This document shows positions 5,724 through 9,006 of a stretch of DNA of 39,972 nt, piece after piece. The stretch covers positions 1 to 39,972 of IMG/VR virus record IMGVR_UViG_3300033064_002906; one strand, written 5' to 3'. The notes under the pieces were generated by a model. It had not been told where the DNA came from and ran no database searches. It worked only from the letters and a program-made list of their open reading frames with translations. The DNA comes from a virus. How positions within the stretch are numbered: position 1 is the stretch's first letter; each line of letters starts with the position of its first letter. The position numbers and the translations under genes are program-made.

Positions 5724-7403
5724 ATGGTGAAGAATAAGCCCCCTGAGATAGTCCTGGACCCCCGGAAGATGCGGATGGTGGATGCTTGGTACTGGGCGAA
5801 TTTCAGTCAGATCAAGCTGGGAACTGGAGATTTTACAACGGTTGGGCATGAATGGCAGATAGGGCCGCTGCAATGCGATGACCCATATCAATGCTTTCTG
5901 AAAGGAGCCCAATTAGGTTTGTCAACATTGGCGATGCTGAAGACCGTACACGGCCATATTTACAATCGGTATCCACAGGGTTCGATGTATGTTTTTCCTA
6001 ACAAGGATCTCATGTCGGATTTCAGCAAAACCAGGCTGAATCCGATTATTTATGAAAACGAATGTGTCAAAAAGTACGTTAAAAGCGAGTCGGGCATTCC
6101 GTCTATTGAGGCTGCCACAGTCAAAAAAATAGGGAAGTCATCCCTGTACCTAAGAAGTGGGCATGAATCAGGGAAAATTCAAGGTATAATGTCCACCTCT
6201 TCTGCCTTGATGTCTGTTTCTGCTGATCGGTTGGTTTTAGATGAACGCGACCAAATGGAAGATGACATGGTTGCCCTGGCGATGGCGCGTATTGACCATA
6301 GCAGTATCAGGGAAGTTGTCGAATTAAGCACGCCTACAATCCCCGATTACGGTATTGATGCCCGGTTCCAGAATTCAGATCAAAGAGTATGGATGATCAA
6401 ATGTGAGGCGTGTAGGACAGAGACCTGCTTGGAATTGGAATTCCCTGATTGCATTCTTGAAAGGCAGGATGGGACAGTCTTCAGAGCGTGCCACAAATGC
6501 AAAAAAGAAATTTTCCCTAGAAATGGACACTGGACGGCTCTTTATCCTGATAGAAAAAAGCTTACAGGATGGAAAATAAGCCAACTTAGTAGCGTTTTTG
6601 CACCTCTTGATATCATCTGGAAATCTTACCATGATCCTAGAAGTGAAAATCTTACCGTTGCCCAGGTTTACAACTCCAAGCTGGGGATGGCCTACATAGA
6701 GGCTGAGAACCGGCTGACCCAGAACGATATATTCCAGTGCTGCGGGAGGGAGCCGAACGGGAAGGCGCCCAGGACGGTCACGGCGATGGGGGTGGATGTC
6801 GGCAAGGACCTCCATGTGGTTATCGGGAGGCCGTTGAAGCAGGAGAAGGCGTACCGGATCGATTATGTGGGACGGGTGGAGAACTTCAATGACCTGCACG
6901 ACCTTGTTGACAGATACGATGTCAGGACTGCGGTGATAGACCAGGGTCCGGAGACCCGGAAGGTCCGGGAGTTCCAGGCGGCTGAAGATTGCAAGGTTTT
7001 CCTGTGTACCTACCTGGACAAACTGAGGGTTGCGGTCAGGGAAGACCAGAGGCGCGGGATGCTGACGGTCAACCGGACGGAGATTTGTGACAAAACACAT
7101 GAGATTTTCGTGAAGGCCGGGGCCATTGAGATTCCCCGCAGGTGTTCGGAAATCGACCAGTATGCCCTGGAGATGAGCAACACGGCCAAGCAACTGGAAG
7201 AAGACCAGAAAACGGGCTCCAAGATTTACAGGTATCGGAAGCTGGGGGAAGATCACTTTTATCACGCCACCAACTATTTCCTGCTGGCCTGCGATGATCC
7301 GGCCGTCAGGTATCCGATTCCGAATGCGTTTGAGATGGCGTCCATGGGGATGGGGAAGTCTGACCGAGAAAGAAACGATTGGGACCCACTTCACCGATCA
7401 TAG
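5724..7403 (+). CDS. terL: Terminase large subunit (GpA family)
   Basis: 559 residues; the ATPase-nuclease motor that packs DNA into the prohead. The ATPase domain has the GpA-type P-loop GAQLGLST (61-68) and Walker B RLVLDERDQ (169-177). Two CxxC pairs (C227/C230 and C256/C259) form the zinc ribbon typical of the family. The nuclease domain starts near 352 with the acidic strand MGVDVGKDLH (D358) and has a second acidic strand AVIDQGPET (D406). Length is normal. No good ribosome site precedes the ATG; the end of a broken small frame overlaps it, so coupling is possible. Confidence 0.93.
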   Translation: MVKNKPPEIVLDPRKMRMVDAWYWANFSQIKLGTGDFTTVGHEWQIGPLQCDDPYQCFLKGAQLGLSTLAMLKTVHGHIYNRYPQGSMYVFPNKDLMSDFSKTRLNPIIYENECVKKYVKSESGIPSIEAATVKKIGKSSLYLRSGHESGKIQGIMSTSSALMSVSADRLVLDERDQMEDDMVALAMARIDHSSIREVVELSTPTIPDYGIDARFQNSDQRVWMIKCEACRTETCLELEFPDCILERQDGTVFRACHKCKKEIFPRNGHWTALYPDRKKLTGWKISQLSSVFAPLDIIWKSYHDPRSENLTVAQVYNSKLGMAYIEAENRLTQNDIFQCCGREPNGKAPRTVTAMGVDVGKDLHVVIGRPLKQEKAYRIDYVGRVENFNDLHDLVDRYDVRTAVIDQGPETRKVREFQAAEDCKVFLCTYLDKLRVAVREDQRRGMLTVNRTEICDKTHEIFVKAGAIEIPRRCSEIDQYALEMSNTAKQLEEDQKTGSKIYRYRKLGEDHFYHATNYFLLACDDPAVRYPIPNAFEMASMGMGKSDRERNDWDPLHRS

Positions 7404-7413
7404 GCGAACCTGA

Positions 7414-7923
7414 TTATGGCAATAGCCTGAAAAATTCCTCTCCTCTTTGAATGGCATTTTCGGGTGGATTGCATTCATACACTTCATTTGCGATATGAAC
7501 GCTTTCCGTCCGGGTAATACTGGCGATTGCAGTTTTTTCCCATTCTTTCCGGCAGGGCCATGTTTTCATGAATTTTGCCGTTGGAGATGAGGTTTTAAAG
7601 GCAGCCATCCTGGAACTAGGATCAGTTGTAAAGCCAAATTTAAGACGGGACTTGTCGAATTCCGGGATAAGCTGGACAATATAGAAAAATCCATTGCTTT
7701 CATTGATTGGCTCTTTGACATTTCGGTAAAATCCTTGGGATTGCCTCAGTTCGATGACTTGCTCGGCATCCTCTATGGGAAGGGCCAACTCAAGTTGTTT
7801 TTTAGGTCCACGGACTTTCGTGAATGATATTCCGTGTTTAAGGACATAACGACGTAAGTTGGATCTATCCAGGCCTAATTTGAGGGATAATTCCTTCAGG
7901 GTGACATATTTTTCGCTTGACAT
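7414..7923 (-). CDS. HTH plus GIY-YIG-like (T5orf172/MUG113-type) protein
   Basis: 169 residues, opposite in direction to all its neighbours. Residues 5-40 (YVTLKELSLKLGLDRSNLRR) look like a helix-turn-helix; residues 77-140 have the T5orf172/MUG113 pattern of the GIY-YIG nuclease superfamily: GFFYIVQL, then KFGFTTDPSSRMAAF and WEKTAIASI, with the conserved glutamate in the last. Such genes act as mobile endonucleases or phage regulators. It has its own consensus promoter and sits between the terminase and the next late gene, 10 nt past the terminase stop, which fits insertion as a free-standing unit. Confidence 0.7.
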   Translation of the reverse strand: MSSEKYVTLKELSLKLGLDRSNLRRYVLKHGISFTKVRGPKKQLELALPIEDAEQVIELRQSQGFYRNVKEPINESNGFFYIVQLIPEFDKSRLKFGFTTDPSSRMAAFKTSSPTAKFMKTWPCRKEWEKTAIASITRTESVHIANEVYECNPPENAIQRGEEFFRLLP

Positions 7924-7950
7924 AGGGTTCCTCCATTGGTAAGATAACCT

Positions 7951-7978
7951 ATCATACCGTACTTACCGAATATGTCAA
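7951..7978 (-). promoter_or_regulatory. Consensus sigma-70 promoter
   Basis: On the minus strand TTGACA (7978-7973), a 16-nt spacer and TATGAT (7956-7951). It starts transcription about 20 nt before the ATG at 7923. The -35 is another copy of CCCTTGACA. This is the best promoter match I see in the window. Confidence 0.75.
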
Positions 7979-7990
7979 GGGGGAAAATTT

Positions 7991-8602
7991 ATGGAAGAGA
8001 AAAAAATTGAGTTAATTCTGATTATGGAGATGTTGGGAACCGTTCCCAAAAACAAACAAATCTATTCTGATTTCATCGTGGACAAGGCCATCAAGAAGGG
8101 TATCGACGTTAATGATGCTGAGGAACTTGAAACCGTTCAGGAATTAGACGAGAAAGGATTCACGGGGTTTCATGTGGATGAAGGCAAATTGTTCCTTTAC
8201 GATTATGTCGTGAAAGGGAACATCAAGGGAAATCTGGAAACCCTGATTCAATCAGGAACGATCAAGAAAATTCCCTCTTATAAGAAGGCCGTGGACAACA
8301 TGCTGTTCATCTTCCCGAGGAAACTTTATTTTTCCAATGGTTCGGGTTCTCCTGTCGTCAAACCGCACGGGATTCTTGAGAGACCGCTCCGGGCCATGAC
8401 GATGTTAGGACCGAGAGTGACGCTCACCAAAAGCGAATATGTAGATATTGGGACTAAAATCGGTTTTGAGGTCAAAATTCTTCCTAATCCGAAGATCACA
8501 TGGGAAGTGGTGGAAAAAGCCCTGGATTACGGCCAGTACGTCGGGCTTGGGCAATGGAGAGGGTCCGGCGGATATGGACGATATACTTGGCGATATGTAT
8601 AG
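7991..8602 (+). CDS. Conserved phage protein, possible RAMP-like fold
   Basis: 203 residues. It begins with a strand-loop of the kind KIELILIMEMLGTVP, followed by a helix, and ends with the glycine-rich GLGQWRGSGGYGRYTWRYV (185-203). That order, an N-terminal hydrophobic strand and a C-terminal G-rich loop with G-x-G-x2-R-x3-G-Y-G-R, is like RAMP (Cas5/Cas6/Cas7-type) RNA-binding proteins. The central RPLRAMTMLGPRVTL is a pattern I associate with unassigned phage proteins. The stop codon directly adjoins the phased GT array. I infer, without proof, that protein and array work together. GGGGGAAA upstream may serve as ribosome site. Confidence 0.6.
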   Translation: MEEKKIELILIMEMLGTVPKNKQIYSDFIVDKAIKKGIDVNDAEELETVQELDEKGFTGFHVDEGKLFLYDYVVKGNIKGNLETLIQSGTIKKIPSYKKAVDNMLFIFPRKLYFSNGSGSPVVKPHGILERPLRAMTMLGPRVTLTKSEYVDIGTKIGFEVKILPNPKITWEVVEKALDYGQYVGLGQWRGSGGYGRYTWRYV

Positions 8603-8916
8603 GTGCGGTGGGGTGACGTAACGGCAGGGTGATGTTGAGTAAGGTGGCGGTAATGTGAAGCACTGTAATGGTGCTGTACAGTTCGGGAGCCGTATAGTAA
8701 AGTTCGGGTAGGGTGCGGTGACGTAATGTGACGTTTGGGTGGGGCAGAGTGTTGTTCCGGTGTGGTGGAGTTGGGTACGGTAATGGTGAGGTGAAGTAAC
8801 GTAAGGTGCCGGTTATGTTCAGTATAGTAGCGTACTGTGATGGTTGCGTAACGTATCTTTTGGTATGGTACTGGTATCGTAGGGCGACGTGCGGCCCCGT
8901 TATGGCAATGTAAAGT
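8603..8916 (+). repeat. Helically phased GT array, non-coding
   Basis: A G followed by T (rarely C) recurs every 5 bp, with a 6-bp step about every 25 bp. Numbering from the base after 8600, the pyrimidine falls at 4, 9, 14, 19, 25, 30, 35, 40, 45, 51 and so on to 316. I count 61 expected positions and 59 matches (misses at about 8688 and 8859), average spacing 5.2 bp. An example is GGTGCGGTGACGTAATGTGA. The three or four bases between are variable, with C scarce. No convincing reading frame crosses it. It begins at the stop codon of the gene before it. The phasing equals half a B-DNA turn. Confidence 0.85.
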
Positions 8917-8943
8917 TTATATAAACAACTTCAATCGATTACG

Positions 8944-8975
8944 CCCTGTGTTTCATATGGAACATGGGGTTTTTT
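8944..8975 (+). terminator. Rho-independent terminator
   Basis: CCCTGTGTT pairs with AACATGGGG (9 bp with two G-T pairs) around an 8-nt loop, followed by six T. It separates the terminase/array unit from the head-gene unit. Confidence 0.8.
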
Positions 8976-9006
8976 ATTCCATTAACCACAAAAGGAGACA
9001 AGGGCG

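Follow-up and report, generated by a model that had tools for sequence, protein, structure and literature searches.

A phage locus with a predicted RAMP gene and a probable guide RNA array of five- and six-base units, related to VIPR systems

Viral Interference Programmable Repeat (VIPR) systems were first described in a 2026 preprint (PMC13142463; doi 10.64898/2026.04.26.720920), according to which small phage-encoded RAMP proteins, called Vipr, use guide RNAs of alternating GGY and NN. Only the NN bases pair with the target, one target base being skipped per unit, and the systems repress competing phages and satellites (PMC13142463). The examples presented in the preprint are the systems of phage SUSP1 and of a P. 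fulva prophage; for SUSP1, the guide RNAs (vrRNAs) were sequenced and their co-purification with Vipr was demonstrated (PMC13142463). Both examples are of type II, in which discrete RNAs of 9-16 YNNGG units are followed by an invariant structured 3' tail. The preprint distinguishes seven types, one of which carries hammerhead ribozymes between the guides, and refers to overlapping arrays in staggered arrangement as well as to related consensus motifs (PMC13142463). VIPR is also a proposal, only months old, for the ancestor of CRISPR RAMPs.

Here we analyze a window comprising a whole IMG/VR record of 39972 bases. It derives from a tailed phage whose genes encode a gpA-type terminase, a portal of podovirus type (Head-tail_con) and a capsid protein. 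After the terminase gene, between it and the portal gene, lies an inserted cassette in which a gene of previously unassigned family is directly followed by a non-coding tandem array (Table 1). We estimate a probability of roughly 90% that this array specifies a long guide RNA (vrRNA), which forms a VIPR-type system with the predicted RAMP protein encoded immediately upstream of the array.

Table 1. Features of the cassette and its borders in the window
Feature	Coordinates	Strand	Basis and remarks
Inserted cassette, 1560 bp	7389..8948		blastn, window versus L153, which has 44 bp there (L153:11663-11706)
169-aa protein in the cassette, divergent from vipr	7414..7923	-	Weak HTH and T5orf172 (GIY-YIG-type) matches
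Promoter-like site TTGACA-17-TAAGAT, TG before the -10	7917..7945	+	Consensus match only; 4 found versus 3.0 expected in shuffles
vipr candidate, 203-aa predicted RAMP protein (Cas7/Csm3 fold, C-terminal glycine loop GLGQWRGSGGYGRY)	7991..8602	+	AlphaFold2, PDB structure matches, profile matches
Putative guide RNA (vrRNA-like) array	8603..8919	+	61 units GTDNN: 49 five-base, 12 six-base (GTDNNG); same architecture beside nearly all homologs
Intrinsic terminator, 12-pair	8943..8976	+	Common to relatives without the cassette

A free search of the window for paths of five- or six-base steps over G-pyrimidine dinucleotides returned 61 phased units, 59 of which start with G-pyrimidine (GT in 53, GC in 6); the two misfits are GAGCC at 8687 and TTTTG at 8858. 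The steps comprise 48 of five and 12 of six bases (312/60 = 5.20), exactly as counted in a preliminary description made from the sequence alone. The path scores 54, compared with 10.8 ± 2.8 (maximum 21) in 1000 dinucleotide-preserving shuffles and with 5 for the runner-up elsewhere on the plus strand of the window. The Fourier analysis which that description had called for likewise gave a peak, with GT power of 36.3 at period 5.2 versus a maximum of 6.9 across 300 shuffles. The six-base steps are also real, but the strict 25-bp spacing attributed to them is not: they recur at intervals of 3-6 units (16-31 bp). With about one six-step per 5-6 units, a mean step of 5.2 follows. All 12 six-base units have G as the sixth base (p ~2e-6 given 33% G at position 5). 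The consensus is G-T-D-N-N, and because position 3 nearly always avoids C (C in 1 of the 61 units), positions 4-5 are the only unconstrained ones.

No open reading frame of at least 60 aa covers the array in any frame, and a coding explanation was rejected. As reported earlier, the upstream gene's stop codon marks the start of the array, which ends before a terminator located 24 bp further on; the hidden Markov model (HMM) used for array calling counts the final codons of that gene, GTATAG, as the first unit. The array RNA shows no secondary structure beyond that of shuffles (z 0.02), and CRISPR-type identical repeats with unique spacers are absent from the locus. A scan of the whole window at Rfam gathering thresholds detected no hammerhead ribozymes and only two RNAs, both copies of the int-alpA sRNA (RF02996; 4956-5023 and 27439-27501) within a single phage window. 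Tandem Repeats Finder reports no long array at the locus, so the units must be very diverged, as they would be in a decayed simple repeat or a low-complexity stretch arisen by chance. That reading is refuted by the path score, far above the shuffled maximum, and by the recurrence of the same 5/6 architecture beside ~100 homologs of the upstream gene.

The protein encoded by this gene has no match in Pfam, PHROGs or NCBIfam. Its AlphaFold2 model, built from a 38-sequence alignment, has a pLDDT of 90 and a pTM of 0.83, and the 50 best PDB chains listed for it are all of CRISPR-Cas RAMP type or bear a RAMP domain. They include type VII Cas7 (Z 13.2, 164 residues, 4.6 Å), Csm3, Cmr4 and gRAMP, with sequence identities of ~9-18% in the structural alignments, and in a library of viral structures the model matched a phage protein that bears the name Cas system-associated RAMP. 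Profile comparisons gave independent agreement, with a match to type VII Cas7 (E 7e-4), and 9 of the 38 family members matched the PADLOC profile Cas7_IIId (E 1e-4). A C-terminal GxGQWRxxxxGR(F/Y) motif is almost invariant across the family, and the C-terminus of the window protein has the look of a RAMP glycine loop. Thus, a RAMP protein of the Cas7/Csm3 fold is predicted with high confidence. The SUSP1 record contains a RAMP-like gene on the minus strand (L007:28474-29061; C-terminus of the product, GVGDWRPRFGRF) with GGTNN runs visible on both sides of the locus. The runs and the glycine loop mark it as the putative Vipr gene, and the family of the window protein aligns with its product over 177 columns (profile match, E 4e-6). 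No cas genes were recognized among the neighboring proteins scanned.

We collected homologs from 56 IMG/VR loci, from contigs of bacterial genomes (48 loci, most of them in Clostridia MAGs) and from five phage records, and called the adjoining arrays with a small HMM for 5/6-step arrays. Among 103 homolog loci, 69 have the array directly downstream of the gene and 29 have it directly upstream, usually no more than 50 bp away; 12 loci were not scored as either, 5 of them with the array overlapping the called end of the gene and most of the others being contig ends or fragments. The impression, voiced in the preliminary description, that related stretches occur in other phages was therefore well founded. 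The family arrays are unbroken, of roughly 25 to 314 units, with the consensus G-H-D-N-N and an extra G about every six units; G carries 1.4 bits of information, position 3 ~0.1 and positions 4-5 ~0.03, which leaves NN free. Six-base units recur every 5-7 units (mean gap 5.67, sd 2.04, versus 5.15 for random placement), a spacing far more regular than chance, and in the family as a whole, which gut phages dominate, they are conserved as GCAANG.

Near-identical genes can carry almost wholly different arrays that have in common short segments in the same phase. In three pairs of homologous segments, 110 of 110, 98 of 98 and 57 of 57 positions were in phase while the filler bases had changed. The earlier argument that recent duplication does not explain the array also holds. 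Such turnover with the phase kept is what hypervariable guides would be expected to look like. In one array (L024:4655-4964), single 26-base modules are tandemly duplicated, hinting that the module is the unit of change. No 3' tail common to the family was seen after the arrays. The locus is minimal: no gene is common to the neighborhoods of most loci, no accessory (vap) gene is conserved, and regulator-, SSB- and recombination-like genes recur beside the RAMP gene in many relatives.

Several other loci in the collection deserve mention. Strict GGY/NN runs, in places split by a four-base GCAG, are found at L028:3890-4058, L028:4790-4933 and L029:1649-1944 in contigs that also hold 5/6 arrays; these runs are probably VIPR arrays of the classical form located alongside the variant ones. 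The array HMM also picked up a regular 15-base repeat, GCARACCTCYACGGG, at L042:6171-6475, which is a different kind of repeat. In the bacterium Porcincola intestinalis (L108, L111), a single genome contains two RAMP genes and a long array beside each of them, which makes it a good candidate for laboratory work.

The preliminary description had interpreted the rhythm at the level of DNA, proposing a protein filament or a structural signal (packaging, origin or anchoring) that touches alternate sides of the helix with each GT step. The mean step of 5.2 is half of 10.4, the family mean is 5.17 ± 0.025, and the array of the window lies near the terminase gene. However, a lock to the helix predicts that module lengths compensate one another, with a lag-1 correlation near -0.5, whereas 1548 modules yielded -0.09, compared with -0.12 ± 0.03 when shuffled within arrays, that is, no compensation. 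Furthermore, the array follows the RAMP gene and not the terminase: it is restricted to a single strand and coupled to a single gene, and an adjoining array accompanies practically every relative of the encoded protein, whereas the close relatives L152-L154 have the terminase region in common with the window and no array. The protein encoded upstream has the predicted fold of the RNA-binding CRISPR RAMPs, which build filaments on RNA, and its relatives use GGY/NN guide RNAs (PMC13142463). We consider the DNA-level interpretation extremely improbable.

An alternative at the level of RNA would be autoregulation, with the RAMP protein coating its own untranslated RNA in the control or stabilization of the message and the variable bases carrying no information. 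The trp RNA-binding attenuation protein (TRAP) binds 11 (G/U)AG triplets spaced by 2-3 bases, and periodic triplets two bases apart resemble such sites; the arrangement of the array directly at the end of the gene (69 loci) or directly before it (29 loci) would also suit a TRAP-like control. Yet arrays exceeding 300 units are needless for a simple binding site, turnover of the array is almost complete between near-identical genes, and relatives of the protein use such RNAs as guides (PMC13142463), all of which makes autoregulation very unlikely.

How the guide RNA array might operate can be inferred from the published VIPR relatives. It would make up the 3' portion of the vipr transcript, which would stop at the terminator, and the promoter-like site upstream would serve both the vipr candidate and the array. 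The RAMP protein would oligomerize on the array RNA, one five-base unit per subunit, with each subunit gripping the fixed G-T-D and presenting positions 4-5, the two free bases. Taken together, the free bases of consecutive units would base-pair with a DNA target in a discontinuous manner and thereby block its transcription; the targets would most likely belong to competing phages. The extra G, every 3-6 units here and about every six in the family, could be a boundary separating overlapping guides or a regular element that sets the register of the protein-RNA assembly, rather than a correction for the helical repeat of DNA. More tentatively, the 5/6 register might constitute a distinct noncontiguous mode of guide reading, in which a module of about six units, ended by the extra-G unit (which in the gut clade is GCAANG), would match either a single guide or a single turn of the RAMP filament. 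If so, unbroken arrays of up to ~60 modules would be multi-guide RNAs without repeats, an organization absent from the main text of the preprint.

Searches for targets with all arrays, allowing skips of 0-3 bases and various treatments of the six-base units, gave nothing above shuffled controls when run against ~0.56, 1.24 and 2.7 Mb of sequence from VIPR loci, related phages and prophages, a small sequence space. Nothing beyond chance was found with module pairs separated by a free gap, in close relatives of the window phage or in three exact-pattern scans of IMG/VR. The best match of these scans, 18 of 18 bases in a gene (GRTITWGEL) present on three contigs, could not be extended and was treated as chance; the contig that carries it has no match for the capsid protein of the window. 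Hot-spring phages related to Hydrogenobaculum phage 1 gave no targets either, array calling being unreliable in those AT-rich genomes. The dinucleotides formed by the NN bases resemble genomic DNA in general, and codon positions 1-2 are not singled out. Since most guides of environmental phages should target sequences outside the few Mb searched, the absence of a target says little.

Comparison with the close relatives shows how the locus was assembled. The terminase-portal site is a cargo spot, because it holds the RAMP gene and array in the window, other genes in L152 and 44 bp in L153; the genes in L152 (L152:11659-13070) are, as we read their sequences, an N6-adenine-methyltransferase-like gene and another small gene. 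By this comparison, the vipr candidate and its array are cargo inserted after the terminase gene, and the terminator behind the array is the ancestral terminator of the terminase gene. The HTH and T5orf172 matches of the 169-aa protein (E 0.013 and 0.07, respectively) are both below curated cut-offs, and its gene is not conserved beside other vipr genes.

This large clade, whose roughly one hundred loci contain several thousand guide units, offers material for decoding how guides are read, and the regular sixth base is a concrete feature that any structural model of the protein-RNA filament must accommodate. The locus also illustrates that a system of this kind can be found from the rhythm of the raw sequence alone.

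Among known systems, TRAP is similar in recognizing RNA triplets at a period of five or six bases and differs in its unrelated fold, its 11 sites and its fixed function without hypervariable information. The RAMPs of Class 1 CRISPR systems (type VII Cas7, Csm3 and Cmr4) are closer: the predicted fold, the length and the glycine loop are alike, and they provide the model, in which RAMPs form a filament on RNA and pairing is interrupted periodically. The differences are the period, five bases here versus six, the low sequence identity noted above, and the lack of recognizable CRISPR repeats or cas genes near the vipr candidate. VIPR is the closest match, with a small phage- or prophage-encoded RAMP protein possessing an RRM core and a glycine loop, a minimal locus, and an adjoining non-coding array in which five-base units, each with two hypervariable bases, are repeated in tandem. 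Thus, the locus appears to be a member of a very recently described kind that departs from the main text of the preprint in several respects: the unit is GTD-NN (G-H-D-NN in the family) rather than GGY-NN; a sixth base, G, is added about every six units in the family; no vap gene is conserved; in contrast to type II, 61 units with interspersed six-base units run unbroken and the family has no common tail; and, in contrast to the ribozyme-bearing type, the window contains no hammerhead at Rfam gathering thresholds. The clade may already be one of the seven VIPR types that the preprint distinguishes (PMC13142463).
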